Shown here: positions 27,627 through 59,735 of the stretch, piece after piece
Position numbering within the stretch: position 1 is the first letter of the stretch
How the letters are laid out: each line of letters begins with the position of its first letter
Assembly (NCBI GenBank): GCA_949893755.1
Contig: CATLCV010000003.1
Location: 21,852-85,851, forward strand
DNA from: an uncultured Lachnospiraceae bacterium
Lineage (GTDB): Bacteria; Bacillota; Clostridia; Lachnospirales; Lachnospiraceae
Direction of reading: 5' to 3'
DNA: 64,000 nucleotides
Notes under the pieces: model-generated
Told to the model about the DNA's origin: nothing
What the model saw: the letters and a program-made list of their open reading frames with translations, nothing else
Databases searched by the model: none
Made by a program: the position numbers and the translations under genes

Positions 27627-28979
27627 ATGCGCAGAAAAATATATGACCGTCTGCTGCAGTGGAAAGAAAAAAGCTGCGGAAAAAGCGCGCTTTTAGTGCA
27701 GGGCGCCCGCCGTGTCGGGAAAAGCTACATTGCGGAAGAATTTGCCAAAGCGGAATACCGTTCCTATATCCTGATCGATTTCAACCTGGTTGATTCCCAG
27801 ATTCGGGACATATTTCTCCATGATCTGGGAGATATGGACACATTTTTCCTGAAGCTTACGACATTTTTTAACACAAAGCTGTATGACCGTGAGTCTGTGA
27901 TCATCCTGGATGAGATCCAGCTTTTCCCCAGAGCCAGAAGCGCCGTCAAATATCTGGTTGCCGACGGGCGTTATGATTATATTGAAACCGGATCCCTCAT
28001 TTCCATCCGGGAAAATGTGAAGGATATCCTGATTCCGTCCGAAGAAGATCACATCAATCTATATCCCATGGATTTTGAAGAATTTCTCTGGGCCGCGGGC
28101 CATGGAACCATGATGGATCTCATTCAGAACTGCTATGAGAAAAAAAAGCCGCTTGGCCAGGCATTGCACCGGAAGGCCATGGATCTGTTCCGCCAATATC
28201 TGATCGTCGGCGGAATGCCGCAGGCTGTGGATGCATTTATTTCCAGCCGTAATTTTGACCAGGTAGACCAGGTGAAGCGCAGGATTCTGAGCCTTTACCG
28301 GGATGACATCCGCAAGCATGCAGGGGGAGAGGAGTTGAAGGTAGAAGCGATCTATGATGAACTGCCCTCCCAGCTGAAAAATCAAAACCGGCATTTTAAG
28401 CTGTCTTCACTGAAGCACGGGGCACGGTTTGATGAATATAAGGACGCGCTTTTCTGGCTGTCCGATGCCATGATCGTGAATAACTGCTATAATTCCACCG
28501 AGCCGAATATCGGCCTGAATCTGAACCGCGACCGCACACTCCTGAAATGCTATATGGGGGATACCGGACTGCTGGTCAGCCATGCCTTTGATGAAAATGG
28601 GATTGTAAGCGGAGAGATCTACAAAAAATTATTATTGGATAAATTGGAAGTGAACATGGGCATGATCCTGGAAAATGCAGTCGCACAGATGCTGACTGCC
28701 GGCGGGCATAAGCTGTACTTTTATGCGAATTCCTCCCGCAGCGACGCGGCATCCCGAATGGAGATTGATTTTTTGACTGCGAAGAGCAAGATCAGCAGCC
28801 GCCATAACATTTCCCCCATCGAGGTCAAGTCCGGGAAAAATTATACCCTGTCTTCCATAAAGAAATTCCGGGAGAAGTATGGAGAGCAGCTGCATATTCC
28901 TTATGTACTGCATACGGGGGATCTGAAGGAAGAGGACCGGATTCTGTATCTGCCGGTTTATATGACGCCTTTTCTCTAA
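27627..28979 (+). CDS. AAA ATPase with DUF4143 (nuclease-like) C-terminal domain
   Basis: 450 residues. The N-terminal ATPase domain has Walker A QGARRVGKSY and Walker B SVIILDEIQLFP, then the sensor-like ADGRYDYIETGSLISI. The C-terminal DUF4143 part contains RDRTLLKCYMGDTGLLVSH and a PD-(D/E)XK-like core EIDFL...ISPIEVKSGKNYT. The ATG at 27627 has AGGAGGTGTAATCTC upstream. Such proteins are common, often horizontally spread, and of unproven function; a role in defence or toxin-like systems is suspected. The stop overlaps the stop of the convergent metallopeptidase gene by three to four bases. An unusual operator array stands upstream. Confidence 0.9.
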   Translation: MRRKIYDRLLQWKEKSCGKSALLVQGARRVGKSYIAEEFAKAEYRSYILIDFNLVDSQIRDIFLHDLGDMDTFFLKLTTFFNTKLYDRESVIILDEIQLFPRARSAVKYLVADGRYDYIETGSLISIRENVKDILIPSEEDHINLYPMDFEEFLWAAGHGTMMDLIQNCYEKKKPLGQALHRKAMDLFRQYLIVGGMPQAVDAFISSRNFDQVDQVKRRILSLYRDDIRKHAGGEELKVEAIYDELPSQLKNQNRHFKLSSLKHGARFDEYKDALFWLSDAMIVNNCYNSTEPNIGLNLNRDRTLLKCYMGDTGLLVSHAFDENGIVSGEIYKKLLLDKLEVNMGMILENAVAQMLTAGGHKLYFYANSSRSDAASRMEIDFLTAKSKISSRHNISPIEVKSGKNYTLSSIKKFREKYGEQLHIPYVLHTGDLKEEDRILYLPVYMTPFL

Positions 28980-29869
28980 ACAACTCCAATCCTCCCTTCT
29001 TCTATCTCCCGCAGGCGCTCAAACGGCTCTCTGCCGTCGGTCGTTCCATCCAGCGCTTCCATGATCCGCCGTACCCGATCCAGCAGCTCCCGGGACGCCT
29101 CGCTTCCGGCGTCCTGTCCGGACAAGTAGTTCTCCAGCCTGCCTCCCGGCCGGTATTCTTCCTCCGTGATCCCCAGGAACAGCCGCGCCAGGCGCAGGTC
29201 ATAGGTTCCGAAAGCGGCAGTCAGGCCGATGCAGTCGGCCACCACCTCATCCCGGATGGTTTCCCGGTTGTCCGGGTAGAGGCGTCCGCTGACCACATGG
29301 GCCAGTTCATGCCAGGTCCGGATGATCCGGGAGTACCGGATCCATTCCTCCTCTGAAAACCCTGCTTCTCCGGGCGGCACCGCACTGTAGTAACCGTTGG
29401 ACAGCAAAATGATCGTATCCTTGTACTTTAACGGATGGATTCCGCTGTCCGCATTCCTTGTAATGCGCCGGAACTCCGCGTTCCAGTCCGTATTTCCTGC
29501 CGCCAGATACCGGGCCTTATATGCATGGATCGTTCTCCAGTTGTTCAGCCCGCGGATCGTCACCGCCCCCATGGAAGCCGGCAGCGGCCGGGGCTCTCCC
29601 CGGTATGCCAGCATCTGCACCGCACGCTCAAAATCTGTTCGGCAGTATAAAAAATAGACATCCACATTTCCTGCAGGCGTTTCCATCTCCTGGAACGAAT
29701 CCTGTTCCGACATCGTAAAAGGGCAGTCACATTCCCCGGGCAGATTTCCCCGCAGGACAATCTCTTTGTATTTTTGAGTCTCCTTTAAGCCTTCCTCCGG
29801 TTCCAGAACCAGCTGCGGATAATTCCACACAAGCCGCTCCCCCGGAAGCATTTTCGTTTCTATTGACAT
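28976..29869 (-). CDS. Predicted zinc metallopeptidase (HExxH) in the LytTR regulon
   Basis: 297 residues, no signal peptide. The motif WHELAHVVSGRLYP (HExxH) near residue 195 is followed 14 residues later by RDEVVADCIGL, whose Glu fits a third zinc ligand (gluzincin arrangement). The rest is not recognised; TIRGLNNWRTIHAYKARYLA is a notable conserved-looking segment. The ATG at 29869 (MSIETKMLPGE) has AGGAG 10 bases upstream; the longer frame from 30004 would start within the operator at 29983-30013, so it is rejected. The operator matches those of the YcaO and peptide operons, so this enzyme belongs to the same regulon. It could process leader, pheromone or product, or give self-protection; that is inference. 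Confidence 0.72.
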   Translation of the reverse strand: MSIETKMLPGERLVWNYPQLVLEPEEGLKETQKYKEIVLRGNLPGECDCPFTMSEQDSFQEMETPAGNVDVYFLYCRTDFERAVQMLAYRGEPRPLPASMGAVTIRGLNNWRTIHAYKARYLAAGNTDWNAEFRRITRNADSGIHPLKYKDTIILLSNGYYSAVPPGEAGFSEEEWIRYSRIIRTWHELAHVVSGRLYPDNRETIRDEVVADCIGLTAAFGTYDLRLARLFLGITEEEYRPGGRLENYLSGQDAGSEASRELLDRVRRIMEALDGTTDGREPFERLREIEEGRIGVV

Positions 29870-29982
29870 TCTCTGTATTCTCCTGATCCTGATTGATGTA
29901 CTGATAAAGAACTGACAAAAGCCCTCCATCTGTTTTTTTGCTCTGATAAAATGACTGTGTACCGCATTCGCCTGGCAGAACC

Positions 29983-30013
29983 TGCATTTCACACCCGAAA
30001 ACATACATTTTAC
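29983..30013 (-). promoter_or_regulatory. LytTR-type operator 1 (direct repeats 21 bp apart)
   Basis: Read on the minus strand, GTAAAATGTA (30013-30004) and GTGAAATGCA (29992-29983) are spaced 21 bases start to start, the spacing used by ComE/AgrA-type LytTR dimers. Three other copies lie at 40383-40413, 58722-58752 and 58851-58881. Here the -10 box of the metallopeptidase gene is poorly defined. Confidence 0.8.
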
Positions 30014-30033
30014 GAAATCACGGATGATTTCCT

Positions 30034-30062
30034 TTGTCCCCCAACCAGATATTTGGTATACT
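30034..30062 (+). promoter_or_regulatory. Promoter of the first LytTR regulator gene
   Basis: TTGTCC (30034-30039) and TATACT (30057-30062) with a 17-base spacer. The distance to operator 1 is identical, base for base, to the TTGTCC/TATACT promoter before the histidine kinase gene at 40434-40462. Confidence 0.75.
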
Positions 30063-30070
30063 TATAAAAT

Positions 30071-30165: not shown

Positions 30166-30184
30166 CGTGAAAGGAGCTGATGAT

Positions 30185-30920
30185 GTGTATCTGAATATTG
30201 CCATATGCGAGGACGACGAAAATGACCTTCGTTTTCTCGAAACCTGCCTGCATTCTGCGTGCGGCGAACTGGAACTGACCGCAAGGATCACCCGATTCTT
30301 TTCCGGAGAGGATTTCCTTACTACTCTTCGTAAAAAAAATACCCCCCCCCGATATTATTTTCATGGATATCTACATGAACGGGATCAGCGGGATCAAGGC
30401 CGCAAGGGACGCCGGTCTGACAGGACAAACCCGGTTCATCTTCACAACAAACAGCCGGGAGCATGCTCTGGAGGCTTTTGCACTGAACGCCGCTCATTAT
30501 CTTCTGAAGCCTTTGACAAAGGAGGCGGTCCAGGAAGCGCTCCGGCGCTGCCTCCCCCGGCCTGGAGAGGCGGAATCGAAGCTTTTGAAGATAAAAACCA
30601 GTCTGGGAACTGTTCCCATACCAATGGAAAATATCCTGTATATTGAAGTATTCAATAAAGTCTGTACCATTCATACAGAAAAAAACAATTTTCAGACCTA
30701 TACATCCCTGGACGCACTGTTTGAACTTCTGGACGGGGTTTCCTTCATGAAGGCGCAGAGAAGCTACATTGTAAATATGAAATACATAGAGTCCTTTTAT
30801 TTTGACCATGTGGTCCTGCAGAACGGGAAAGAGATCGTCCTCTCCAGAAACAGCCGCGGGGAACTGAAAAATCAGTACCAGCAATTTTTATTCCATCTGG
30901 CAAGGAAGGGCGCAATATAA
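30185..30920 (+). pseudogene. LytTR-family response regulator, interrupted at a poly-C tract (possibly phase variable)
   Basis: The GTG at 30185, with AAAGGAG upstream, opens MYLNIAICEDDENDLRFLET, a receiver domain. At 30342-30350 nine Cs follow eight As. The frame then breaks, while the correct continuation PDIIFMDIYMNGISGIKAA, with the phosphoacceptor Asp, lies in the next frame and runs to the stop at 30920 through the receiver Lys region (YLLKPLTKEAV) and a complete LytTR DNA-binding domain (SFMKAQRSYIVNMKYIESF). With eight Cs the gene would be one open frame of about 244 codons. This may be slipped-strand ON/OFF switching, a fixed mutation or an assembly error. The intact form would be a ComE/AgrA-type activator of the repeats at 29983, 40383, 58722 and 58851. 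Confidence 0.85.
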
Positions 30921-30998: not shown

Positions 30999-31421
30999 CT
31001 ACGCCGCCCTCCACTTTTTCTCGAAGGAGATCCGGTTATACCCTTCCTTCCATTCATACCGGATGGAATCCAGAAATTTTTTTGCCATAAAGACGCCCAG
31101 TCCGCCGACCTTCCGCTCTTTGGCGCTCAGAGTGATGTCCGGGTCCGCCTTGCTGAGCGGGTTGTACGGAGTCCCGCAATCCTCCAGGCTGATATTCAGG
31201 GAACGCTGCACCCCGTCCTTTTCAATTTCATAGGATACGCGCACATTTCCCTTGCCGTCCTGATAGGCATAGTTCACAATATTAACAAAAAGCTCCTCAA
31301 ACGCGATGTCGAACTGCATCTGCATTTTCGCAGGGCATCCGTGCTCCTGCAGTACCATTTCAAACAGTTCTGTCAGCTCCATCAATGACTGCTTCGTTGC
31401 TTCCACCTCTAATGTTTTCAT
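30999..31421 (-). CDS. RsbW/SpoIIAB-like ATP-binding anti-sigma-type kinase
   Basis: 140 residues with a HATPase_c_2 fold: N box FEELFVNIVNYAYQDG, GTPYNPL, and G2-like VGGLGVFMAKKFLDSI. It is the last gene of the peptide/SpoIIE/NHLP operon and follows a STAS protein by 8 bases. In partner switching such a kinase phosphorylates the STAS protein and, when free of it, binds a sigma factor or other target. No sigma gene is in this operon, so the target is unknown. A weak inverted repeat (GGAACTG/CAGTTCC, 30921-30953) between it and the convergent regulator may terminate both. Confidence 0.88.
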   Translation of the reverse strand: MKTLEVEATKQSLMELTELFEMVLQEHGCPAKMQMQFDIAFEELFVNIVNYAYQDGKGNVRVSYEIEKDGVQRSLNISLEDCGTPYNPLSKADPDITLSAKERKVGGLGVFMAKKFLDSIRYEWKEGYNRISFEKKWRAA

Positions 31422-31429
31422 AGCCGCTC

Positions 31430-31729
31430 CTATTCTACCGTAAGAATGTCAATAAATCCCGTGGATTCAAATACTTCCTCTACCATGCTGTTTACGTTGC
31501 ACAGGATCATTTCCTTGTCCTCACTGTTGACCTTTTTCTGTCCGTTCAAGAGTGCCCGGAGGCCGGCGCTGGAAACGTACTGCACCTGTTCAAAATCCAG
31601 CCGGACGCAGTCCGCCCTTCCGATTCCCGACAGAAGTTCTTTTTCAAAATCCTCCGCCGTGTAGGTATCGATCCTTCCTTCCGTGTGCAGCACCAGTTCG
31701 TCTTCTCTCTGTTCAAATGTCACCTTCAT
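31430..31729 (-). CDS. STAS-domain anti-sigma factor antagonist (RsbV/SpoIIAA-like)
   Basis: 99 residues: MKVTFEQREDELVLHTEGRI, then VRLDFEQVQYVSSAGLRALL, where the Ser of SSAGLR is the site phosphorylated by the partner kinase in this family. The ATG at 31729 is preferred to upstream frames because AAAGGATGGAAG precedes it and because it starts the domain. It sits between the NHLP permease/ATPase gene and the kinase gene. The phosphatase that would reactivate it (SpoIIE-type) is encoded five genes upstream in the same operon. Confidence 0.9.
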   Translation of the reverse strand: MKVTFEQREDELVLHTEGRIDTYTAEDFEKELLSGIGRADCVRLDFEQVQYVSSAGLRALLNGQKKVNSEDKEMILCNVNSMVEEVFESTGFIDILTVE

Positions 31730-31812
31730 GATATTCTTCCATCCTTTCATCATCTTTTCGTATATACATATCCCGCGCAATCTGCACAGATTATCCTCGC
31801 AGCCGCTTCTTA

Positions 31813-34362
31813 TCATGCCAATTGCCGGCTTGCCAGCTGGTAAAACAATCCTCCCTGCTCCATCAATTCTTCATAATTCCCTTCCTCCGCCAGCCTCCCC
31901 TGATCCATCACAAAGATCCGGTCGCAGTCCATCACCGTGCTGAGCCGGTGGGCGATGACGATCCGGGTAGCCTTTAATTTTGCCAGGCTTTCGCAGACCA
32001 TGTTCTGGGTCACGTTGTCCAGGGCCGATGTGGCCTCGTCAAAAAACAGAATCTTCGGATTGCTGACGATGGCCCGTGCGATCAGGATCCTCTGCTGCTG
32101 CCCGCCGGAGATGGTGCCGCTGTTCTCAGACAGCACCGTGTGCAGCCCCATGGGCATCTGCGCGATATCGTCCTTCAGGCCCACCTCTTCGATCACCTTT
32201 TCCACCTGCTTCATGGTCGTGCCCGGAGCCGTGATGGTGATATTATCGAAAATGCTTCCCGCGATCAGGTCGCCGTCCTGGAGCACCACGCCGAACTTCT
32301 TGCGCAGCTCCCGCTTGTCCATGCTGTCAATGTCCTTGCCGTCGTAGAAGATCTTTCCCTTCTGGGGGCGCTCAAAGCCCAGCAGCATTTTCATCAGCGT
32401 GGATTTTCCTCCGCCCGAAGCGCCTACCACGCCGATATACTCCCCGGGTCGGATATGAAAGGACAGGTCATTCAGCACATTTCCACTTTCCGCATTGTAG
32501 GCAAAGGTCACGTTGCTGACTTCAATATCTCCGGTCAGCGTGCCGGGGAGGATCGTTTCCTCCTCCATCTCGGGCAGCGCCGAGAGGATCGGCTTACACC
32601 GCCGGTATGCCGGGATTGCCGAGTTCACGTCCATGAAGGAGGACACGATCCCCAGCATCGCCCCGGAAAAGGAACCGAAAGCGGACATGAACGCGGAAAA
32701 CGCGCCCACGCTTAAGGACACGCTTTTGCGCATCATCCAGAAGTACAGCGCCATGGAAAATGCCACATTCAGCGCCCCCACCAGCACGTCTGCCCCGGCG
32801 CTCATCTTCTCCTTCCGGATGTTGATATTGCGGATCCTGGAATAGACTTTCAGGTATTCGTACTGGACCCGGTTCTCCACGCCGGCGATCCGGATCTTGG
32901 AAATGCCCGCTAAAAACTGGAACATCAGCGAGGACAGCTTCCCGTCCAGCTCCATTTTTTCACTCTCATATTTCAGCTGCCGCCAGCCGATCAGGCCGAT
33001 GACCAGCATCGCCCCCAGCACCATGATGACGGACGGCTTTGCCAGGGGCTTCGCGTACCGGAACATCTGCCAGAGATACATCAGGGAGAGCACCGCCGTG
33101 ATCACCGTTTTCACGATCACATCCGCAAAGACCTGGTAAATGCTTGTGATGCCCATGACTCTCTGGGCCAGGTCGGCGGAATCGTATTCCCGGAAAAAGC
33201 TTTCCGGCAGGTTGAACAGCCGGTCGTAGGCCGCGCTCTGCACCGCGTATTCCATCGTATTCATGCTCCGGAAGGTGGCCAGATTTTTCACAATGGTAAA
33301 GCTTAAGTTTCCCAGGGAGCAGGCCAGCACCAGGAGGCAGATCTGCACCAGCCCGCTCTGGTCCGCCATGGGGATGAATTTGTCATACACCTGCTGGTTG
33401 ATCACCGGGAGCAGCAGCCCCGCCAGTGTCCCCAAAAACGCCAGAAACCCGATCTTCACAATGTCCCGGATATACACGCATTTGAAACCGAATGCGAGAA
33501 GATCCTTCCACTTCATGGCTTTGGCCGGGAAGGGGCGGTACACCATATCCGCCTTGACCGACAGGGCGGCCGCGTATCTGGCGTCGATCACCACGCCCTC
33601 GCTTTCCGGCGACTCGTAGGCAATGTATTTCTGAGGGCCTTTCGGCAGGCAGACTACCGGGGCGCGGCCCTTTTCCTTGTAGGCCAGGATGGGGCCCGAA
33701 TCCTTCTGATACCATTTTTCCTCCAGCACGATCTCCCGGCTGGTAAAATGGGAGAGACGGCCGATGTCCCGGATATCGAACTTCCGCCTGCAGCTTTCCT
33801 TTACCGTGGAAAACGGGGCGATACGGATGTCCATATAGTCGCAGATCCGGGCCGCCGCGTCGTAGACCTTATTCCCGCTTACAGGCGTCTTGTTTTTCCG
33901 GTTCTTTTTCCGGAACATGTCGTAGATCAGAAACAGGCCCCGCTCATAGGTCTGCTCCTGTTCCAGAGATGTGGCGTAGATGCCGCCCTCCTCCTTGATG
34001 ATATTGATGTTGTACTGCTCCGCCATCTGCTCTTCAAATTCTTCCGGATCAAAGAGCCGGATTCCCAGGGTGGACGCAAAATCCATTTTCACCTGCTCCG
34101 GGTTCTTGGGACGGATTGCCCGAAGCTGTGCCTGTTCCAGGGCGATCAGGGCGAAACGCCAGGAGCCCAGCTTTTCGTTGTCCCAGCACAGAGAAGGGAT
34201 CCATTCCCCTTCCGTCATCTCGCCGATCAGGAAGCGCCTGCCGGGATTTCCGTCTTCCAGGGGGAGCACGTAGACCAGGACATGGCCCTCCAGAACCTGG
34301 AAGGCCCGCCGGGGATCCTCCGTGATCAGCTTCTGGCCGCCTTTTAATCTGATATTCTCCAT
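31813..34362 (-). CDS. NHLP-type bacteriocin export ABC permease/ATPase (first cassette)
   Basis: 849 residues. An N-terminal domain of about 270 residues (MENIRLKGGQKLITEDPRRA, cupin/cNMP-like) without a peptidase motif, six membrane helices from about 290 to 580, then an ATPase with Walker A GASGGGKSTLM, signature TISGGQQQRILIARA and Walker B ILFFDEATSALD. This composition matches the second ABC protein of NHLM/NHLP systems, which works with the C39 peptidase-transporter and the HlyD-like protein encoded just upstream. Its closest match in the window is the protein at 48228-50768. It probably helps export peptide products. Confidence 0.92.
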   Translation of the reverse strand: MENIRLKGGQKLITEDPRRAFQVLEGHVLVYVLPLEDGNPGRRFLIGEMTEGEWIPSLCWDNEKLGSWRFALIALEQAQLRAIRPKNPEQVKMDFASTLGIRLFDPEEFEEQMAEQYNINIIKEEGGIYATSLEQEQTYERGLFLIYDMFRKKNRKNKTPVSGNKVYDAAARICDYMDIRIAPFSTVKESCRRKFDIRDIGRLSHFTSREIVLEEKWYQKDSGPILAYKEKGRAPVVCLPKGPQKYIAYESPESEGVVIDARYAAALSVKADMVYRPFPAKAMKWKDLLAFGFKCVYIRDIVKIGFLAFLGTLAGLLLPVINQQVYDKFIPMADQSGLVQICLLVLACSLGNLSFTIVKNLATFRSMNTMEYAVQSAAYDRLFNLPESFFREYDSADLAQRVMGITSIYQVFADVIVKTVITAVLSLMYLWQMFRYAKPLAKPSVIMVLGAMLVIGLIGWRQLKYESEKMELDGKLSSLMFQFLAGISKIRIAGVENRVQYEYLKVYSRIRNINIRKEKMSAGADVLVGALNVAFSMALYFWMMRKSVSLSVGAFSAFMSAFGSFSGAMLGIVSSFMDVNSAIPAYRRCKPILSALPEMEEETILPGTLTGDIEVSNVTFAYNAESGNVLNDLSFHIRPGEYIGVVGASGGGKSTLMKMLLGFERPQKGKIFYDGKDIDSMDKRELRKKFGVVLQDGDLIAGSIFDNITITAPGTTMKQVEKVIEEVGLKDDIAQMPMGLHTVLSENSGTISGGQQQRILIARAIVSNPKILFFDEATSALDNVTQNMVCESLAKLKATRIVIAHRLSTVMDCDRIFVMDQGRLAEEGNYEELMEQGGLFYQLASRQLA

Positions 34363-40382: not shown

Positions 40383-40413
40383 TGCACTTCGCACCCGAAA
40401 GCATACACTTCAC
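40383..40413 (-). promoter_or_regulatory. LytTR-type operator 2 (direct repeats 21 bp apart)
   Basis: On the minus strand GTGAAGTGTA (40413-40404) and GCGAAGTGCA (40392-40383) are 21 bases apart. The intervening TGCTTTCGGGT is nearly the same as in operator 1. It lies between the divergent peptide operon and histidine kinase gene. Confidence 0.85.
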
Positions 40414-40433
40414 GAAATCCGTCGGATTTTACT

Positions 40434-47336: not shown

Positions 47337-48224
47337 TCACTCCAACATATAGTTATACTGCACGGACCGGGAGCTGATGAGATGCTTCATCACACGGCCG
47401 GACAGCGCGATCGCCCGTTTGTTTTGTTCAAACATGGCAAATTCAATGGTTCCGCATTCGGTCTCGCCGACGCTCCTGACGGACATGGCAAAGGGCTGGA
47501 AGATCACGCCCGTCCCCTGATACTCCTTTCGGGCCGACAGTATTTCAAAAATATAGTCGTTTTCATTATGCCCGCACACGAGACAATAGGCGGCCGCCCG
47601 GCCGTCCCGGACCGACAGCCAGCTTTTTTCCCGGCAAAAATACGTCTCCTGTCCCCGGACGATCTTCGCCGGATCCATGCCCCTGTCATATTCCGGATCC
47701 CTCCGGTCCAGAAACCGCGCAAGCAGCCCCGGATCCGCGGACGCGAAGGGCACCGCCTCAAACCCCTGTCCTTCCAGAAAGGCCAGGATCCGGTTCCCGT
47801 GCCGCTCCATGTAGGCCAGCCAACGCCCGTAGTCCTCTCTCCGGGACCGGAAGATCTCCACCCGGTCCTGCAGCCGGAAGCCCTGTTTTTCGGCGATCGC
47901 CCTCAGGGCGCCGCAGCGGGGGTGGGATTCGTTCACCCGCAGCAGAAGCGTTCTGCCCTTCTGCCGTTCCTCCGCCGCCAGGGCACCCAGCAGCGCGGTC
48001 GCGGTGCCCTCTCCCGGCCGGACCGCGCCCAGATACAGAATCTCGGTCACCTCGTTCCCGGTCGCGTACAGAAGGATTCCCGCGCGCTCTCCCCGGCGGT
48101 TCCACAGCCCCAGGATCGTAACCGCGCTCCCTTTTTCACTCAGGTAATAATCGGACAGCGGGGTCCTGCATGCCTCAAACAGGATCAGGTACTCCACCTC
48201 CGTCAGTTTTCGTATCGTACACAT
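47337..48224 (-). CDS. Double GNAT-fold acyltransferase 1, next to the ACP
   Basis: 295 residues in two GNAT-like halves. The first half has EILYLGAVRPGEGTATALLG, which corresponds to the acyl-CoA/pantetheine loop (R/Q-x-x-G-x-G/A). The second has EILSARKEYQGTGVIFQPFA. A shared segment YMERHGNRILAFLEGQGFEA is matched by YLESHGNRVTAWLEDRGFYS in the protein at 54861, so the two are paralogues. It starts two codons after the stop of the NHLP permease/ATPase gene with a weak site, so it is translationally coupled. GNAT-type enzymes attach fatty acyl chains to RiPP peptides in goadvionin and selidamide pathways. That role is inferred here. Confidence 0.78.
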   Translation of the reverse strand: MCTIRKLTEVEYLILFEACRTPLSDYYLSEKGSAVTILGLWNRRGERAGILLYATGNEVTEILYLGAVRPGEGTATALLGALAAEERQKGRTLLLRVNESHPRCGALRAIAEKQGFRLQDRVEIFRSRREDYGRWLAYMERHGNRILAFLEGQGFEAVPFASADPGLLARFLDRRDPEYDRGMDPAKIVRGQETYFCREKSWLSVRDGRAAAYCLVCGHNENDYIFEILSARKEYQGTGVIFQPFAMSVRSVGETECGTIEFAMFEQNKRAIALSGRVMKHLISSRSVQYNYMLE

Positions 48225-50768: not shown

Positions 50769-50843
50769 ATCCTTCTCCATTCTCTGTTCCGTAAATCCTG
50801 CCGCCGTACTGGACTACAGCCGTTTCGCCCCTTCCGCCGCAGC

Positions 50844-53007: not shown

Positions 53008-54783
53008 TCATTTCGCTGGTTCTTCTGTCTGGTTCTCGACGCTTAAGGCGGATTTGAGGAAGGGGATCAGCTTCTGGATCGGCGCGTCCTCCTTCACACG
53101 GACCTTTGCCGACACCGGCGTATTTTCCCCGATCTCCACGTTTCTTCCTTTTCTGTTGGACCAGGCATAGCCGCTGGCCGTGGACTCGTCCGTATCCAGG
53201 GCGATCAGGACCTCGATGCAGGGGCCCTGCTGCTGGTATGCCTGAACCGAGACTTCATCTCCAAGGACCTGGAGCATCTCCGCTGAGGACACGGTATAGG
53301 TGCCCACGCTGGCCACATGTCCTGTCATATGCCCGTATTCCTGTTCGTCTACCGTGGAAGGCGTGACCACAGCCTTCATCTTTTCCCTGAGCTGCTTCCC
53401 GCTTGCCAGAGGCACATAGCACCGGACAATCTCCGCGTTTTCCGTCTCAGAATCGCTTTTGACCTTCACCACCTCGGTCCCCTGGCCCACAAGCTGGTTC
53501 TTTTCCACCGGGATATCCACCACAGTGCCGGCAAGCTTTGCCTTGATCTCTTCCGTTCCGCCGGTGGATTCATAAGCTTCCAGCTGGGCCTTCAGATCCT
53601 TCAATACGGACTGCTTCGCCGCTTCGAACCTCTGGCTTACGGTTTCCCTGCTGACATTGGTATTCCTGGATTCGATGGTCTCTGTCACGGACACCTCCCG
53701 GATCTGCTGCTCCAGGGACCTCTGCTGGCTGTATGCCGTGGAATAGAGGGAGGAGGCTTCCTGAAAGGCGGTGCTCAGGCGGGTCTGCTCCGCGGTCCGG
53801 CTGTTCTGGGAGGAATAATATTCCTCGTAGTCCGCCCGGGCCTTGTCATACTCCTCCTGTGCTTCGTCCAGAGCGGTCCCCGCGCCGTCATATTTCTGAT
53901 CTGCCTGGGAAATCTGCGAATCCAGGTCCCGCTTCTGGGACTGATAGCCGGAGATCTGGGATCCCAATTGTTCTAACTGGGACGCAAGGACCGCCCGCTC
54001 TTCCGCTGCTTCTTCCGGCAGCGAATCCAGCTGCATGCGCAGGCTCTCATACTGGCCTTCCAGCTCCTGCAGGGCCTGTTCCAGGGAACGGGCGGATTCC
54101 TCCATGGCTTTCAGCTCTGCTTCCGCACTCTGCCGCTCCGCCTGGGCGGTCTGCAGCTTTGCCTGGGCCTCCTGGTAGGCAAAGGTCGCCACATTGCCGC
54201 TGTCATCCCCCAGGGCTGCCAGGTATTCGGCCTCCGCCGCTCTCCGCCGGGCATCGTAAGAGGCCACCTCCGCCTGAATCTGCCCCAGCTGCCCCCGCAG
54301 GGCATCCAGTGTGGTCTGCCGTTCCTCCAGGGTCATGCCGGCATTCCGGTACTCGATCTTATATTCCAGGAGCTGGGCATTGTCCGAGGTGGGGGTGTCA
54401 TTTCCGCTGGTGAGCGTCACGCCTTCCACGGCCTGGATCCGCTCCTGAAGCTGGGAGATGGTGACCGCGTTCTCTTCATTTGTCACCACTGCCAGCGTAT
54501 CCCCGGTCTTCACAGACTGGCCCTTTTCCACCAGAATGTCTGTTACGGTCCCTCCGTAGGAAGCATAGTTTCCAAAATTTCTGGTGTTGGTCATATACAT
54601 TCCGGATACGCCCACGTTATCCGGCAGGCGTCCGAACACCGCCCAGCTCATCACGCTGACGACAAGCAGCGCGGCGCCGGCTACGGCGATCCACAGCGAG
54701 GGGGATGCGATACGGATCATCTTGTCAAGCTGCTCCGGTGATGACAGACGCTCCATAGAGGATTTCCTGTAAATATTTCCCAT
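53008..54783 (-). CDS. NHLP-type HlyD-like secretion protein (second cassette)
   Basis: 591 residues from the ATG at 54783 (MGNIYRKSSMERLSSPEQLD), chosen by alignment with the paralogue at 36526 and an AGGA 9 bases upstream; the longer frame is rejected. Membrane helix near 31-52 (LWIAVAGAALLVVSVMSWAV), lipoyl-like half (YGGTVTDILVEKGQSVKTGD), long coiled coil (about 75-390) and closing lipoyl and beta-barrel part (IKAKLAGTVVDIPVEKNQLV). It would connect the second ABC pair to the wall. It sits 13 bases before the peptidase-transporter gene. Confidence 0.92.
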   Translation of the reverse strand: MGNIYRKSSMERLSSPEQLDKMIRIASPSLWIAVAGAALLVVSVMSWAVFGRLPDNVGVSGMYMTNTRNFGNYASYGGTVTDILVEKGQSVKTGDTLAVVTNEENAVTISQLQERIQAVEGVTLTSGNDTPTSDNAQLLEYKIEYRNAGMTLEERQTTLDALRGQLGQIQAEVASYDARRRAAEAEYLAALGDDSGNVATFAYQEAQAKLQTAQAERQSAEAELKAMEESARSLEQALQELEGQYESLRMQLDSLPEEAAEERAVLASQLEQLGSQISGYQSQKRDLDSQISQADQKYDGAGTALDEAQEEYDKARADYEEYYSSQNSRTAEQTRLSTAFQEASSLYSTAYSQQRSLEQQIREVSVTETIESRNTNVSRETVSQRFEAAKQSVLKDLKAQLEAYESTGGTEEIKAKLAGTVVDIPVEKNQLVGQGTEVVKVKSDSETENAEIVRCYVPLASGKQLREKMKAVVTPSTVDEQEYGHMTGHVASVGTYTVSSAEMLQVLGDEVSVQAYQQQGPCIEVLIALDTDESTASGYAWSNRKGRNVEIGENTPVSAKVRVKEDAPIQKLIPFLKSALSVENQTEEPAK

Positions 54784-54860
54784 TCCGGTTGTTCCTGCCG
54801 GCCCGATACATCGGTGTATCTTTTTTTCAGTCCGGCAGACCTCCTTTCCTTGCATGTTGT

Positions 54861-55802
54861 TTAGAAGGGAGCGGTTTCAGGCATTCTGCCCCCTGCCGCC
54901 GCCCGTTTTTCGTAGTGGTACTGCAGTTTTTCCGTGCTGCGGATCCTTCGGAACATCCGGCGGGAAAGCGCCAGCGCCCGGGGGTTGGTCTCGTATACGG
55001 CATATCCCATCCGTTCATACCCCGACGCGTAAAAGGAATCCACCATCCGGGCAAAGGCCAGGAACACCACTCCCTGATCCTGGCAGCTCCGGCAGGCGGC
55101 GATCTGTTCGCAGACCACGTTTTTTCTGTCCGCCCGGATCACAAAGCTGTAGGCCGCAGGCACATTTCCCCGGCAGGCCAGCCAGCTCAGCTCTTCCAGC
55201 AGCTCCCCCTGTCTCCCCCCGGTCAGAAACCTGGGGTCCATGGGACTGTAGAGCCCCTGCCGGGCCTGCTCCGCCAGGGCCCTGCGCAGGTCTTCCCCGG
55301 CCTCTGCATAGGGGATGCTGTAAAATCCCCGGTCCTCCAGCCAGGCCGTGACCCGGTTCCCGTGACTCTCCAGGTAAGCCCGCCAGGAGGCTTCTGTATC
55401 CTTCGTACTTCCAAACAGATGTACCTTTTCTGTCTGCACATACTTCAATCCCTCCAGTATCTTTTTCATGGTGAAAAAATACCGGAGGGTTTCCGGCAGC
55501 CGGAAGGTTACAAGCTCTGCGTCTCCCTGCTCTTCCAAGCGCAGGATCGCCTGTGCCGCAACTCCCCGGCCTCTGTATTCTGGAAATACATAGATATAAT
55601 GGACCTCCGCTTCCCTCTCCCTGACGGATGCCAGAAGGAAACCGGCCGCTGCTTCTGTCAGCCCGCAGGCGGTGATCTGACAGATCTGCAGGTGATCCGT
55701 CCCGTGGCGGACATAGTAGTCAGCGGCCGTCAGCCTTTCCTGACCAAACAGGGAAAAATAGGTGACCGGATCGATCTTATGTAAACGTACTTCCGTTTTC
55801 AT
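54861..55802 (-). CDS. Double GNAT-fold acyltransferase 2, next to the precursor genes
   Basis: 313 residues with two GNAT-like halves. The first half has IYVFPEYRGRGVAAQAIL, a textbook acyl-CoA-binding loop (RGRGVA). The second half is more degenerate (RSCQDQGVVFLAFARMVDS). It shares the HGNR...LE..GF linker motif with GNAT1. The ATG at 55802 is 12 bases after the stop of the first precursor gene, and the HlyD gene follows. Adjacent to precursor genes, it is the best candidate to acylate the peptide, for example at N-terminal or Lys amines of the core; whether GNAT1 and GNAT2 act on different precursors is unknown. Confidence 0.8.
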   Translation of the reverse strand: MKTEVRLHKIDPVTYFSLFGQERLTAADYYVRHGTDHLQICQITACGLTEAAAGFLLASVREREAEVHYIYVFPEYRGRGVAAQAILRLEEQGDAELVTFRLPETLRYFFTMKKILEGLKYVQTEKVHLFGSTKDTEASWRAYLESHGNRVTAWLEDRGFYSIPYAEAGEDLRRALAEQARQGLYSPMDPRFLTGGRQGELLEELSWLACRGNVPAAYSFVIRADRKNVVCEQIAACRSCQDQGVVFLAFARMVDSFYASGYERMGYAVYETNPRALALSRRMFRRIRSTEKLQYHYEKRAAAGGRMPETAPF

Positions 55803-55814: not shown

Positions 55815-56153
55815 TCAAAGGAAATTCGTGATCAGCGCGATGGGGCTGTATTTTTTGATGCCCTCCGCCACCTTGTCAAATCCCTTTTCGATACTGGACG
55901 CACTCGTGCTTTTGCCGCCGGCCACCTGGTCCAGGTCTTCCTCGGAAAGCACACCGCTCTCTTTTTCCTCGTTGTATGCCTTGAGGATCTCAAGACTGTT
56001 TCTCAGTTCGTCCATGGTCACGTCGCAGCCGGCTTCCTTTACCACCTGGTAAACCTCCTCCAGGGAGCTGCTTGCCGTGATCTTCTCAATCACTTCTTTG
56101 GTTGTGACTGCCTCTACCAGCTTGTCATTCAATTCACCCTTTGGTGTATACAT
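55815..56153 (-). CDS. Nif11-like double-glycine precursor peptide A
   Basis: 112 residues. The leader starts MYTPKGELNDKLVEAVTTKE and has the Nif11-like helix pattern ending SEEDLDQVAGG (GG at residues 79-80). The predicted core of 32 residues starts KSTSASSIEKGFDKVAEGIK and ends in SPIALITNFL. It contains Ser/Thr and Lys but no Cys, which limits thiazole or lanthionine chemistry and favours Ser/Thr- or Lys-directed modification. The core would form an amphipathic helix. AGGAGGAGAAC precedes the ATG. The leader is closely similar to that of precursor B, so both should use the same maturation and export enzymes. Confidence 0.92.
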   Translation of the reverse strand: MYTPKGELNDKLVEAVTTKEVIEKITASSSLEEVYQVVKEAGCDVTMDELRNSLEILKAYNEEKESGVLSEEDLDQVAGGKSTSASSIEKGFDKVAEGIKKYSPIALITNFL

Positions 56154-56171: not shown

Positions 56172-56513
56172 TTATACTCCGATGATACTGCCCAGTACCT
56201 TGATGGTTCCGCTCCAGCCAATCTTGAAGCCCTCGCCAAAATCATTGAAAAACTTCTTCGCGCCGGCTTTGGATCCGCCCGCGACCAGATCCAGGTCTTC
56301 TTCGGAAAGCACGCCTTCCTCGGACTCTTCCAGATAAGACGTCATGATCACAATGGATTCTTTCAGTCTGTCCATCGTAAGCTCCGGATCCGCCTCCTGA
56401 ACCAGTGCCAGCAGGGTGTCCGCGTCTTTGGCCCCGGCCATTTTTTTCGCGAAGCTTTCGTCCTTCATTGCCTCCAGCAGTTTGTCGCTGAGTTCTCCTT
56501 TTGGTGTATACAT
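56172..56513 (-). CDS. Nif11-like double-glycine precursor peptide B
   Basis: 113 residues. Leader MYTPKGELSDKLLEAMKDES to SEEDLDLVAGG (GG at 79-80 or nearby), core of 33 residues starting SKAGAKKFFNDFGEGFKIGW and ending VLGSIIGV. The core is Gly-rich and cationic with GxxxG-like spacings (GEG, GTIKVLG), as in two-peptide bacteriocins, and has no Cys. A GAAAGGAGAG site precedes the ATG. It is encoded just upstream of precursor A. Cores differ almost completely while leaders are alike, the typical sign of a two-component product. The real modified residues cannot be read from the sequence. Confidence 0.92.
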   Translation of the reverse strand: MYTPKGELSDKLLEAMKDESFAKKMAGAKDADTLLALVQEADPELTMDRLKESIVIMTSYLEESEEGVLSEEDLDLVAGGSKAGAKKFFNDFGEGFKIGWSGTIKVLGSIIGV

Positions 56514-56563: not shown

Positions 56564-56809
56564 TTATTTGCATAGGGACGCGGCATATTCACCCGGAAAT
56601 GCGACATAATCAGCAGGCTGCGCAGGTGCGGGAAGCGGCTCCTTGTGCATGGTCCGGACCGGCTGTTCCTGCGCAGGTGCGGGAAATGGCTTCTTGTGCA
56701 TGGTCCGGACCGGCTGTTCCTGCGCAAGTGCGGGAAATGGCTTCTTGTGCATGGTCCGGACCGGCTGTTCCTGCGCAAGTGCGGGAAATGGCCGTGATGT
56801 GCAGCTCAT
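56564..56809 (-). CDS. Small repeat ORF coupled to the YcaO gene (81 codons, doubtful)
   Basis: The ATG overlaps the YcaO stop codon (TAATG). The product begins MSCTSRPFPALAQEQPVRTM and holds three and a half copies of a 17-residue unit PFPALAQEQPVRTMHKK. No leader motif or double glycine is seen. The frame is the product of a 51-bp tandem DNA repeat, whose other frames are also open, so it may be accidental. If translated, the repeats could be a multi-core substrate or a simple mRNA spacer between the enzyme and precursor genes. Confidence 0.35.
   Translation of the reverse strand: MSCTSRPFPALAQEQPVRTMHKKPFPALAQEQPVRTMHKKPFPAPAQEQPVRTMHKEPLPAPAQPADYVAFPGEYAASLCK
56621..56793. repeat. 51-bp tandem repeat between the YcaO and precursor genes
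   Basis: CGCAGGTGCGGGAA or CGCAAGTGCGGGAA starts copies at 56621, 56672, 56723 and (partial) 56774, exactly 51 bases apart, and TGCATGGTCCGGACCGGCTG recurs in each of the first three. It includes the dyad GGTCCGGACC. Confidence 0.92.
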
Positions 56810-58647
56810 TAGCTATCGAGAAGCTCTCCCACGGCCTCCTGGGAAATGGGGTTCGCCTTCATGCCGGCCTTCAGCCTTCTGCGCACGCCGCACCAGATCC
56901 CGTACCCGCCCGGCAGCTCCTTCCCCTCTTTTTCCATGGCCAGATAGTCGTTTCTGGGGTACTGCTTCACGAATACCTTCTCCGGCTCCCGCAGAAGCTC
57001 TGCCGCCCGGTCTGCCTGCCCGTCTCCGAAAAATTTGCGCAGGCAGGAGAGGATCCTTTCCTCTGAAAGCCCTTCCGCCTTCGCGGAGATATAATAGAAG
57101 AGGACCCTGTAGGACAATGCCCGGGGGCTGCCCAGCTCCTTCGCGGCTTCGGCCATTCCTCTGAGCCGCTGCGCCGCGTCCGCGAAATCCCCCAGATAAT
57201 AGCTGCACATGGCCGACAGATAGAGCCAGCCGTACCCGATCTCTTCCCCCGGAAATTCAAAATCCGGGCTGCCGCCGTACAGCGCTCCCACCTCCCTGCT
57301 GAACTGGTTCTGGTGCAGATAATCCACGACGCCCCTCAAGAGCCTGACCGACGTTTCCTCCAGGCTTTCCGGATAATTCAGGAAGGGGATGAGATAGCTC
57401 CTGGTATTGAATATTTTCAGGGTCAGCACGGACGCGTCCCGCAGGATCTCGGACATCCCGGGCACCAGGATCTGGTACGACGGGAAGCCCAGCCAGGATA
57501 CGTCCCGGATCAGGATATCATATCCTTCTTTGCGCAGGCCGGAGATCATGCCTGTCAGGAGGTCCCGGTTGCTTTTGTTCGATACGTCCGGCATCTCCGT
57601 AAATTCCCAGTCCGGCGTATCTTCGAAGAGCTGGCAGGGATAATTCCCGAAGCCCATCCGATAGCTGTTGTAAATGTTGTTGGGGTCGGTGACCTGATCC
57701 CGGTCAAAGGTCAGCCCGCTCCTCAGGGCGTAGTCTTTAAAATCCCCTCCCTGGGAGCTTTCCGTGATCGCCCGCTCCATGGCGATTCCGTAATCCGGAT
57801 GGCATCCCAGCTTGATGCCGTACCGGCCCGTATCCTTTCCGATGATCAGAAGGGCGGCCACAGGCCAGGCTCCCCCGAAGGAGGCGTCTTTCAGGTATAC
57901 GGTGATGTCCTCCTGCTCCCGGAGCAGTTGTATCCGCTCACACACGCAGGGAAATCTTTGAATGTATTCGTCCGGGATATCGGGAAGTACCGGGTGTTCC
58001 AGAAAAATCTTTTCCTGCACATGCCGCTCCAGGATCTCGGACAGCCCCTGTACCAGCGCTTCCTCCGCGGTGTTCCCCGCGCACATCCCGTTGCTCCCGT
58101 AGTGGAGCATGCACAGATAGTAGGGGACATATTCCGTCCTTTTCCGGCTGACGCTGTAAAAGGGAAGTACCTCATAGGAGTCCTTTCTGCATTCCAGAAA
58201 AAACTCTGTTTTGTAGTATTTCCGGAGATATGCCGCCCGCTCCTTCGGGCCGGAAGCCTCCATGCCCCGCATTGCGAAATATTGTTCCATCATGGCGTTG
58301 TCCAGCGCCCCAAGCTGTCTGGAATCCAGCAGCCGCTCGTCCGGAAAGTGCTCAAAGCCTTCTGTCTCCCTGCTGCTCCGGGTCAGGAGCAGGAAGAAGT
58401 GGTTCTGCAGACGCTCCATAAATTCCGCGTAGGCGCTGGCTCTGGCATAGGATCTGGATACCCCTTTTCCGTTTGCCCCGATATCGGTCCCTTTGATCAC
58501 CAGCCTGAGTGAAAATGTGTCCGCGCTGCTTTTGGGGATCCATGTTTCCTCTACCTCCACATCGATCGCGCTTAAGATCCCCCGGAGCTTTTCGACCGTT
58601 TCCTCCGGGCTCCTCTCTTTGTAATGGGCTTCCTGTTGTTTGCTCAT
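56809..58647 (-). CDS. YcaO-domain protein (stand-alone ATP-dependent cyclodehydratase-like)
   Basis: 612 residues. ATP-binding elements of YcaO proteins are visible: SRSYARASAYAEFMERLQ (SxxxSxxExxER type, near residue 65), GNTAEEALVQGLSEILERHV (near 193) and CHPDYGIAMERAITESSQGG (near 283). The C-terminal 200 residues are helical, TPR-like, and the last residues are not the PxPxP type of azoline-forming enzymes. No E1-like/ocin-ThiF partner, dehydrogenase or TfuA is encoded nearby. It heads the operon, 37 bases after a LytTR-controlled promoter. With Cys-free cores, it may form oxazolines or another backbone change; alternatively its activity resembles housekeeping YcaO. GGAGGTACT precedes the ATG. 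Confidence 0.88.
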   Translation of the reverse strand: MSKQQEAHYKERSPEETVEKLRGILSAIDVEVEETWIPKSSADTFSLRLVIKGTDIGANGKGVSRSYARASAYAEFMERLQNHFFLLLTRSSRETEGFEHFPDERLLDSRQLGALDNAMMEQYFAMRGMEASGPKERAAYLRKYYKTEFFLECRKDSYEVLPFYSVSRKRTEYVPYYLCMLHYGSNGMCAGNTAEEALVQGLSEILERHVQEKIFLEHPVLPDIPDEYIQRFPCVCERIQLLREQEDITVYLKDASFGGAWPVAALLIIGKDTGRYGIKLGCHPDYGIAMERAITESSQGGDFKDYALRSGLTFDRDQVTDPNNIYNSYRMGFGNYPCQLFEDTPDWEFTEMPDVSNKSNRDLLTGMISGLRKEGYDILIRDVSWLGFPSYQILVPGMSEILRDASVLTLKIFNTRSYLIPFLNYPESLEETSVRLLRGVVDYLHQNQFSREVGALYGGSPDFEFPGEEIGYGWLYLSAMCSYYLGDFADAAQRLRGMAEAAKELGSPRALSYRVLFYYISAKAEGLSEERILSCLRKFFGDGQADRAAELLREPEKVFVKQYPRNDYLAMEKEGKELPGGYGIWCGVRRRLKAGMKANPISQEAVGELLDS

Positions 58648-58690: not shown

Positions 58691-58696
58691 AGTATA
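58691..58696 (-). promoter_or_regulatory. -10 box of the YcaO/precursor/synthase operon
   Basis: TATACT on the minus strand, 25 bases from the proximal half of operator 3, with no -35 box. Predicted 5' UTR of about 37 bases. Confidence 0.75.
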
Positions 58697-58721
58697 GCAT
58701 GTCCTGCTGTATGTCTTGTAG

Positions 58722-58752
58722 TGCACTTCACACCCTAACAGATACACTTTAC
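58722..58752 (-). promoter_or_regulatory. LytTR-type operator 3 (direct repeats 21 bp apart)
   Basis: On the minus strand GTAAAGTGTA (58752-58743) and GTGAAGTGCA (58731-58722), 21 bases apart. Following CTACAAGACAT is shared with operator 4. It faces the YcaO operon and mirrors operator 4 in the same divergent region. Confidence 0.88.
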
Positions 58753-58850
58753 GAATTCCGGAACTGTTAAGAATGAAGTTTTCACTGCGCTCAGAGGCTG
58801 GATGCGTTATCATTCGCAGCCGGTCAGGCCGTAAAGTGTGACCGGTCAGC

Positions 58851-58881
58851 GTGAAGTGTATCTGTTTGGGCGTGAAGTGCA
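58851..58881 (+). promoter_or_regulatory. LytTR-type operator 4 (direct repeats 21 bp apart)
   Basis: On the plus strand GTGAAGTGTA (58851-58860) and GTGAAGTGCA (58872-58881). An additional half copy GTAAAGTGTG lies at 58831-58840. TATACT follows at 58907-58912, 25 bases from the proximal half. It drives the second LytTR regulator gene, so the regulator is likely autoregulated. Confidence 0.88.
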
Positions 58882-59033
58882 CTACAAGAAAAATAACAGG
58901 ATATGCTATACTTTTTTATAACAGCTTTTAATGTGAATGGTGAATCATTCGGGGGACTTCCGGCAGAAAATCAGCCGCTGATACGGGGGCGCGGAAGCTT
59001 CCGGAAGTGCTTTTATGGTCAGGGAGGAGCTAT

Positions 59034-59735
59034 ATGTATACGATTGCGATCTGCGATGCGGATTCATCTGCCGTAAAACAACTGAATACCGAAATCCGTA
59101 AAGTGTTAGTGAATCTGAAGATCATGCATACCGTCTACTCCTTTGCAAACGCGGAGTCTTTATACGATACGGTCCGCAGATATCCGGAAAAGTTTAATCT
59201 GCTTTTTCTTGAAACGGATGTGCAGCCTTATAGCGGAGTTGAGCTGGCGGGCAGACTGCGGGAACTGGGATATGACTATGAGATCGTTCTGATCTCGAAA
59301 AACATGGATTATATCAGAGACGGTTATGACATCGAGGCCTGCCAGTATTTTACCAAGCCTGTCGGAAACAGCCAGCTCCGCAGGTTATTTTTCAGGCTTT
59401 CCCGAAAAATGCTGCAGCGCTCGTCCCAGTATCTGCTGCTGAACCACGGAACTATTTTTTATAAGATTCCATATACAGACGTGAACTACATAGAAACCGC
59501 CCACAGGAAGATCGCGATCCATACCAGGGATGAACTGATCGAATACCCCTGTAAGCTTTCGGAAATTGAAAAGATGCTGCCGAAAACATTTTTCACGCGC
59601 TGCCATCAGAGCTTTATCATCCAGATCTTCGCGGTGAGCCATCTTGCCATGTCAAAGGCTGTCTTAAAAGACGGGACGGAGATCCCGATCAGCCGATCCT
59701 ATAAGGACAATGTGCAGATGATCTTCAGCGCGTGA
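59034..59735 (+). CDS. LytTR-family response regulator with Glu at the phosphoacceptor position
   Basis: 233 residues from ATG 59034 (GGGAGGAGCTAT upstream; longer frame rejected). A receiver-like domain (MYTIAICDADSSAVKQLNTE) is followed by a LytTR domain (IFYKIPYTDVNYIETAHRKI, then TRCHQSFIIQ). Where receivers have the phosphoacceptor Asp, this protein has Glu60 in NLLFLETDVQPYSGVE; the Lys in YFTKPVGN is kept. Glu can imitate a phosphorylated Asp, so the protein may be active without a kinase or be tuned differently from the first regulator. It is divergent from the YcaO operon and shares mirrored operators with it. It is a natural activator candidate for the whole regulon. Confidence 0.88.
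   Translation: MYTIAICDADSSAVKQLNTEIRKVLVNLKIMHTVYSFANAESLYDTVRRYPEKFNLLFLETDVQPYSGVELAGRLRELGYDYEIVLISKNMDYIRDGYDIEACQYFTKPVGNSQLRRLFFRLSRKMLQRSSQYLLLNHGTIFYKIPYTDVNYIETAHRKIAIHTRDELIEYPCKLSEIEKMLPKTFFTRCHQSFIIQIFAVSHLAMSKAVLKDGTEIPISRSYKDNVQMIFSA

Follow-up and report, generated by a model that had tools for sequence, protein, structure and literature searches.

Ribosomally synthesized and post-translationally modified peptides (RiPPs) whose acyl chains come from synthases encoded in the same cluster are a known kind of natural product. The lipoavitides, attributed to Ren et al. 2024, reportedly combine non-modular fatty acid synthases with N-terminal acylation. The type II systems for aryl polyenes and ishigamide consist of a ketosynthase (KS) with an inactive chain-length factor (CLF), a ketoreductase (KR), a dehydratase (DH) and an acyl carrier protein (ACP), and contain no enoyl reductase. 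In the goadvionins and lipolanthines, according to the accessible parts of the reports, an acyltransferase links a polyketide with a ribosomal peptide (PMC13060382, PMC9505594), and for nostolysamide the accessible text describes a Nif11 leader and a tandem GNAT, NpuN, which acylates Lys1 (PMC13060382). In the available parts of the literature covered, RiPPs with a cluster-made chain are class III lanthipeptides, and the Nif11/NHLP selidamides use fatty acids of primary metabolism. The locus described here lies in a stretch of 64,000 nucleotides (the window) from the 5.87-Mb draft genome of an uncultured Lachnospiraceae bacterium (assembly GCA_949893755.1, contig CATLCV010000003.1, positions 21,852 to 85,851). 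We consider it likely, with a probability of roughly 70%, that this locus, with its two Nif11-like precursors, two GNATs, KS/CLF acyl synthase, YcaO and twin NHLP exporters, would make and export lipid-tailed peptides whose chain is built on site. An earlier note on this DNA knew of no described system with the full gene set; the kind itself has been described, and it is the exact combination of Nif11/NHLP, KS/CLF and YcaO that is new. Among the literature matches listed (titles and abstract starts, with subscription papers mostly outside the coverage), no Nif11/NHLP cluster with KS/CLF and GNAT is described.

Gene content, gene order, residues, repeats and recurrence were read from the sequence. 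All gene classes of the earlier listing were recovered in place by open reading frame (ORF) listing and family scans of the window. The long minus-strand operon of the earlier note (58647 down to 41883) is present, and the reading frames of the biosynthetic genes are open. The operon runs as follows.

56809 to 58647, minus strand: YcaO, E. coli-YcaO-like (PF02624 E 5.2e-50, 171 bits, cut-off 25.7; PDB 4q84 E 1.2e-46)
56564 to 56809, minus strand: 81-aa ORF, mostly 51-bp tandem repeats, no family match
56172 to 56513, minus strand: precursor peptide 1, 113 aa (core after VAGG of 33 aa, Ser-Lys start, no Cys; TIGR03798 19.3 bits)
55815 to 56153, minus strand: precursor peptide 2, 112 aa (core after VAGG of 32 aa, Lys start, no Cys; TIGR03798 27.0 bits)
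54861 to 55802, minus strand: GNAT1, predicted tandem GNAT acyltransferase (Pfam GNAT match above cut-off)
53008 to 54855, minus strand: NHLP HlyD-like adaptor (TIGR03794 202.2 bits, cut-off 156.2)
50844 to 52994, minus strand: NHLP C39 peptidase/ABC exporter (TIGR03796 1017.2 bits, cut-off 853.3)
48228 to 50780, minus strand: NHLP ABC exporter subunit 2 (TIGR03797 850 bits, cut-off 709.4)
47337 to 48224, minus strand: GNAT2, GNAT1 homologue (28% identity to GNAT1 over 294 aa, E 3e-32; no Pfam match)
47041 to 47310, minus strand: ACP (PF00550 E 6.5e-11)
45740 to 47044, minus strand: KS with Cys-His-His (PF02801 E 8.1e-33, PF00109 E 5.7e-21; 48-bp repeat insertion at 45963-46117)
45291 to 45743, minus strand: FabZ-like DH (PF07977 E 5.7e-19)
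44180 to 45298, minus strand: CLF-like KS homologue (PF00109 E 8.9e-9; Cys and both His replaced)
43349 to 44077, minus strand: FabG-like KR (PF13561 E 7.1e-65; TIGR01830 267.8 bits, under the cut-off of 297.75)
41883 to 43349, minus strand: propionyl-CoA-carboxylase-beta-type carboxyltransferase (PF01039 E 2.8e-154; PDB 1vrg E 7.7e-150)

The leaders of both precursors end in the double-glycine site VAGG, the two peptides are 46% identical over 100 aa, and their Nif11 family scores fall below the curated TIGR03798 cut-off of 32.3 bits. The C39 peptidase domain PF03412, which is present in both exporters of the locus, would cleave after VAGG, and the first NHLP trio would export the product. 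Each core holds five Lys and zero Cys, and the lack of Cys means that Cys-derived thiazoles are not possible. YcaO, whose closest solved relative is E. coli YcaO, would instead alter one or more backbone amides of the cores to an oxazoline, thioamide or amidine. Between YcaO and the first precursor lies a tandem array (56618-56792; 51-bp unit, 3.4 copies, 96% matches by TRF) that is in frame with the 81-aa ORF; this ORF may be no gene. A special RNA in these repeats was also considered and dropped, as the fold z-score of -1.38 gave no RNA fold signal.

The predicted GNAT structure matches tandem GNATs at the level of the modelled fold, and GNAT1 had no plasmid match. Each GNAT would acylate one of the two cores at the Lys nearest its start, position 1 in one peptide and position 2 in the other. 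Selidamides carry a fatty acyl group on the side chain of a Lys or Orn. With the selidamides and nostolysamide the locus shares a Nif11-like leader with a double-glycine cut, a C39 exporter, a GNAT of predicted tandem fold and a Lys at core position 1 or 2; it differs from them in that its GNATs are two, its cluster includes a synthase, and YcaO takes the place of a lanthipeptide synthetase; its acyl transfer is predicted. The lipoavitides, as judged by the title of the paper, likewise have acyl synthase genes within a RiPP pathway, whereas the locus lacks a lanthipeptide synthetase and follows a Nif11/NHLP route. Family scans of the cluster ORFs found no class III lanthipeptide synthetase, unlike in lipolanthine, goadvionin and lipoavitide clusters. 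The proposed coupling of a cluster-made chain to a ribosomal peptide by a GNAT is shared with the goadvionins and lipolanthines, while peptide class, leader and exporter differ from those given in the accessible parts of the reports (PMC13060382, PMC9505594).

The catalytic Cys-His-His triad is present in 13 of 13 KS sequences aligned, including the host FabF, and all three residues are missing from six of six CLF sequences (the window and five relatives). No enoyl reductase, FabD or FabH was found by family scans among the cluster ORFs, and none of the six related loci described below has a FabK-, FabD- or FabH-like ORF. The CLF without catalytic residues and the missing enoyl reductase point to a KS/CLF (type II polyketide-like) synthase rather than a fatty acid synthase; the RiPP/acyl-synthase hybrid of the earlier note is supported, and KS/CLF synthase is the better name for what it called a type II fatty acid synthase. 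The gene set, with KS, inactive CLF, KR, DH and ACP and no enoyl reductase, is that of the aryl-polyene and ishigamide systems, and peptide coupling is proposed only for the locus. Among the KS matches are PDB 6qsp and 6kxd, which we take to be KS/CLF systems of the aryl-polyene/ishigamide type; FabF-type chains match the KS with higher scores than these two. The synthases of goadvionins and lipolanthines are of another type. Two repeats lie within the coding regions: the 48-bp tandem repeat in KS inserts residues immediately ahead of the second catalytic His, and a shorter one is found in CLF (45141-45194), for which one database variant is 12 aa longer.

The host has its own fatty acid genes on contig C232 (the start of AccC, FabZ, AccB, FabF, FabG, FabD, FabK, ACP and FabH), all above an NCBIfam cut-off except AccC, which was named from its translation. 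Identity between cluster and host proteins is low (ACP 36% over 55 aa, KS 27%, DH 31%, KR 42%), so the cluster genes are no recent copies of the host genes. All reactions, partner assignments and the biological role proposed in this text are predictions. The KS/CLF pair would elongate the chain on the cluster ACP, and KR and DH would reduce and dehydrate it. Host FabD, FabH and FabK would provide malonyl loading, the chain start and any enoyl reduction. Since the cluster has no enoyl reductase, the chain would be either a polyene or reduced by host FabK. The carboxyltransferase would provide extender units together with host biotin proteins; one of the same type (45% identity) adjoins a KS-CLF fusion, KR, DH and FabD in another genome (G028).

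Recurrence was followed with CLF. A protein search, in which the best 8,000 candidates were scored, returned at least 42 proteins, 41 of them covering at least 82% of the query with 29-96% identity, including proteins from Blautia, Clostridium and Synergistaceae. A profile of the window CLF and 12 of the 42 homologues, searched against GTDB genomes, led to six loci, whose gene content was read from all ORFs, including short ones under longer antisense ORFs. The Synergistaceae contig (18,340 bp; L081 and L070) carries 13 gene types: HlyD, C39-ABC, NHLP ABC2, DUF7005, HATPase, SpoIIE, STAS, GNAT, ACP, KS, DH, CLF and KR. It thus unites gene types of both window operons, and its genes for GNAT, ACP, KS, DH, CLF and KR are consecutive. 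A Ruminococcus locus (L075) has, in this order, GNAT, a Nif11-like VSGG precursor, ACP, KS, CLF and KR, together with an NHLP trio and a 37-aa double-glycine peptide and with no DH; its precursor scores 20.8 bits with TIGR03798, below the cut-off, and passes the cut-off of bacteriocin_sig. In Synergistales (L071), ACP, KS, DH, CLF and KR stand with an NHLP trio. GNAT, ACP, KS, CLF, KR and an NHLP exporter are therefore found together in two of the six loci, and KS/CLF/KR with an NHLP exporter in a third, so that the tally is three loci with the exporter, two with GNAT and one with a recognisable precursor. In a tree of 13 KS sequences, the rooting of which is arbitrary and some branches of which are long, the KS of the window, L070, L071 and L075 form one group (support 96/96), next to those of Roseburia, Enterococcus and G447 (98/97). 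The recurrence of the core set in Synergistaceae and Ruminococcus suggests a recurring product class.

The cluster is sporadic, as the CLF profile at E 1e-40 matched 0 of 80 and 0 of 147 other genomes of the two families to which the Synergistaceae and Ruminococcus loci belong. No KS at E 1e-70 was found in 298 other genomes of the window's family. The single CLF query gave weak matches in 132 of these 298 genomes, the best (E 9.3e-14) being a KS-CLF fusion in G306, and the others were taken as FabF-like without individual checking. GNAT1 as a protein probe returned two proteins from the best 7,997 candidates scored, one of them the window's own, and, across 144 other genomes, one GNAT that matched weakly and looked ordinary. 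A GNAT profile of three rows picked up one of the 298 other family genomes (G227), whose 20 kb contain neither a synthase gene nor an NHLP trio. Genome contigs scanned with a YcaO pattern gave no match, and none of the 11 congeners matched the M29 peptidase marker of the right flank at E 1e-60. At this same threshold a KS-CLF query in the order matched 31 of 344 genomes, which do not include that of the window; the five examined were other clusters and were used only as tree rows.

YcaO followed a distribution of its own. At E 1e-20 or better it was found in three of the 298 other family genomes, G245, G073 and G197, the last two with different clusters. The G245 locus has two YcaO genes, at least four Nif11-like VAGG precursors with cores free of Cys, a radical SAM-SPASM protein, a methyltransferase, an NHLP trio, STAS, HATPase, SpoIIE, GHKL/LytTR genes and DUF7005; the 33 kb read lack synthase genes. 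Beside its SpoIIE gene stands a 368-aa protein (C19, L036 3523-4629) that has a GNAT match of 19.0 bits against the Pfam cut-off of 20.7 and resembles neither GNAT1 nor GNAT2 at E 1e-4. The G245 cluster supports the view that YcaO would act on such Nif11-like precursors. Taken with the synthase loci, it makes the window look like a merger of a YcaO/Nif11/NHLP module and a GNAT/KS-CLF/NHLP module. In G073 (L033; C5 318000-337999), a YcaO 36% identical to the window's lies with ThiF, an M50 peptidase, a class III aminotransferase and a short-chain dehydrogenase/reductase, in a separate RiPP-like cluster.

Several of these results weigh against a lipid-tailed, YcaO-modified product. YcaO is present in none of the six related loci, and no ThiF or TfuA partner of it, such as azole-forming or TfuA-type thioamide systems have, was found among the cluster ORFs scanned. 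No precursor was recognised in L070, where the contig ends just past KR, or in L071, and the 21 kb read of L071 held no GNAT. The Ruminococcus GNAT lies in two overlapping frames, and the acylation site is not conserved, since all Lys of the Ruminococcus core lie close to the C-terminus. The structure model of GNAT1 is weak (pLDDT 61.8) and that of GNAT2 unusable (47.0); the full CoA-loop motif of the N-domain is present in GNAT1 and the Synergistaceae GNAT and missing in GNAT2, and the likeness to tandem GNATs is one of predicted fold. The G306 KS-CLF, which stands beside an NHLP trio but serves with a nonribosomal peptide synthetase (NRPS), falls outside the 96/96 group, and two Roseburia loci (one of just 6.5 kb) and one Enterococcus locus have the synthase with neither an NHLP trio nor a GNAT in the DNA read. 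The earlier note had held that its proposal would be refuted if synthase and precursor genes were regularly separate in homologous operons, and had suggested a neighbourhood comparison. Separation is seen in part, half of the loci being without exporter or GNAT, and the core set does occur jointly in two distant genomes. Its lipidated peptide with GNATs as the likely joining enzymes is supported in outline, with YcaO as an extra of the window genome; that YcaO would modify these peptides and that the two would work as a pair, as the note's two-component product implies, are predictions.

The alternative that survives best, although we regard it as unlikely, is that the locus builds a chain that never becomes attached to the peptides: the synthase would yield a small lipid or polyene of its own, and the GNATs would act as acetyltransferases in immunity or capping. 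The Roseburia and Enterococcus loci fit this view, as does the similarity of GNAT1 to acetyltransferase families, and the G306 fusion with NRPS and NHLP trio indicates that such a synthase can serve other products. It leaves aside, however, that GNAT2 lies directly between exporter and ACP within one operon, and that a GNAT is consecutive with synthase genes in the Synergistaceae contig and with precursor and synthase genes in Ruminococcus. An ordinary two-peptide bacteriocin-like pair with YcaO modification only, any acyl group coming from host fatty acid synthesis as in the selidamides and the cluster synthase being unrelated cargo, appears quite improbable: the joint recurrence of GNAT and synthase in distant genomes is unexpected for such cargo, even though G245 has a YcaO/Nif11/NHLP cluster without a synthase and phaeornamide, a selidamide, is stated in the accessible part of its source to carry a primary-metabolism chain (PMC9505594). 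That the cluster is decayed or an assembly join and no working unit is very improbable, as, in spite of a draft of 384 contigs with 6.36% contamination and one LytTR regulator split over two frames, the biosynthetic frames are open, the GNAT1, GNAT2 and CLF protein clusters each represent two or three contigs (the window's own possibly included), the listings from other sources include a GNAT1 variant of 87% and CLF variants of 95-96% identity, and the independent Synergistaceae assembly matches much of the gene set. Within the preferred reading of peptides with a tail made on site, a broader proposal is put forward tentatively, at somewhat less than even odds: a class of polyene-tailed RiPPs across phyla, in which a KS/CLF without enoyl reductase would make an unsaturated chain, tandem GNATs would pass it to Nif11-like peptides and NHLP exporters would release them, here with a YcaO backbone change and a private pheromone circuit in addition.

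Two side observations concern synthase genes in other settings. The G306 contig C340 (L039 1509-14554) holds the KS-CLF fusion and an ACP beside an NRPS (condensation and AMP-binding domains) and the NHLP trio, with the C39 exporter in two frames; its NHLP exporter possibly serves a non-ribosomal or hybrid product. In G447 (L065; C72), KS and CLF-KR genes lie with radical SAM, an M50 peptidase and a class III aminotransferase, in a different, possibly peptide-linked cluster.

The second operon of the locus (40291 down to 30999, minus strand) has another NHLP cassette, as the earlier note had claimed, its TIGR03794, TIGR03796 and TIGR03797 matches all exceeding their cut-offs. A GHKL kinase gene lies on the plus strand between both operons, and a LytTR regulator gene is divergent from YcaO. 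The genes and predicted regulatory sites are as follows.

40145 to 40291, minus strand: 48-aa double-glycine peptide, predicted pheromone, first gene of the second operon (no family match)
38468 to 40048, minus strand: SpoIIE-type phosphatase (PF07228 E 1.7e-51)
36526 to 38448, minus strand: second NHLP HlyD-like adaptor (TIGR03794 250.4 bits)
34377 to 36524, minus strand: second NHLP C39 peptidase/ABC exporter (TIGR03796 1046.4 bits)
31813 to 34362, minus strand: second NHLP ABC exporter subunit 2 (TIGR03797 861.6 bits)
31430 to 31816, minus strand: STAS anti-sigma-antagonist-like protein (PF01740 E 2.1e-18)
30999 to 31421, minus strand: HATPase_c_2 anti-sigma-like ATPase (PF13581 E 2.6e-18)
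28976 to 29869, minus strand: DUF7005 protein with HExxH, predicted metallopeptidase-like (PF22541 E 7.8e-56, scored on a longer ORF)
40505 to 41866, plus strand: GHKL sensor kinase (PF14501 E 1.2e-14)
59007 to 59735, plus strand: LytTR response regulator, intact (PF04397 E 4.7e-19, PF00072 E 1.2e-7)
58850 to 58879, minus strand: LytTR-type direct-repeat site, LytTR gene promoter (0 mismatches; half-sites 21 bp apart; TATACT 25 bp on)
58724 to 58753, plus strand: LytTR-type site, YcaO operon promoter (2 mismatches; half-sites 21 bp apart; TATACT 25 bp on)
40385 to 40414, plus strand: LytTR-type site, pheromone/exporter operon promoter (0 mismatches; half-sites 21 bp apart; TACAAT 24 bp on)
29985 to 30014, plus strand: weaker LytTR-type site upstream of DUF7005 (3 mismatches; half-sites 21 bp apart; TACACA 21 bp on)

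One such pair of repeats is common to both intergenic regions. The paired direct repeats mark four units: YcaO, LytTR, the pheromone/exporter operon and DUF7005. The 30-bp site pattern, allowing up to three mismatches, has four matches in the window and none in each of 100 shuffles, a count that is weakened by the fact that the pattern was drawn from two of its four matches (40385 and 58850); the whole draft genome contains the identical four matches only, and the reversed pattern has none. In all four sites the half-site starts are 21 bp apart, and a -10-like hexamer, scored from a set of our own choosing, lies 21 to 25 bp past the second half-site. In the available part of its source, the PlnC regulon is characterized by 9-bp repeats with a 12-bp spacer (PMC2714321). 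The locus shares with PlnC/PlnD quorum sensing the repeats 21 bp start to start upstream of a promoter, a LytTR-type regulator and a double-glycine peptide; unlike there, its GHKL kinase and regulator genes are 17 kb apart, and its sites are predicted. The second NHLP trio would export the 48-aa peptide as a pheromone, the GHKL kinase would sense it, and LytTR would switch on the four marked promoters; that a single LytTR protein binds all four predicted sites is inferred. The quorum-sensing-type circuit claimed earlier is supported. The kinase is present as claimed, and the place of the pheromone-like peptide is corrected to 40145-40291; only the LytTR regulator divergent from YcaO is intact, the other (about 30180-30920) being split over two reading frames near a homopolymer stretch, in a real break or an assembly error.

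The DUF7005 gene most likely starts at 29869 rather than at 30004. HExxH and DExxAD are kept in three of three copies compared (the window, L070 747-1592 and G245 C19, L035/L036), all of them in NHLP loci, and judging from these motifs DUF7005 proteins are likely metallopeptidase-like. SpoIIE, STAS and HATPase_c_2 accompany NHLP exporters in the window, G245 and the Synergistaceae contig, and G245 has an adjoining sigma-70-like gene. Elsewhere in the window, an HSP70 gene is followed by one for a 698-aa DnaJ-domain protein (16150-20066), and 33-bp tandem repeats (27369-27507) lie upstream of an AAA_14/DUF4143 gene.

The recurring SpoIIE, STAS, ATPase and DUF7005 companions point to yet-unexplained control or maturation parts. 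The locus would also offer a test of YcaO action on cores without Cys. Recurrence in two phyla, together with steps that are all open to bench tests, makes the set of high interest. If the proposal is true, these clusters would yield lipopeptides with peptide and tail both encoded, with GNAT and ACP-bound acyl as a lipidation pair for bench use, and the locus and its relatives would link both known routes: leader-guided peptides with a self-made tail, in Bacillota and Synergistota.

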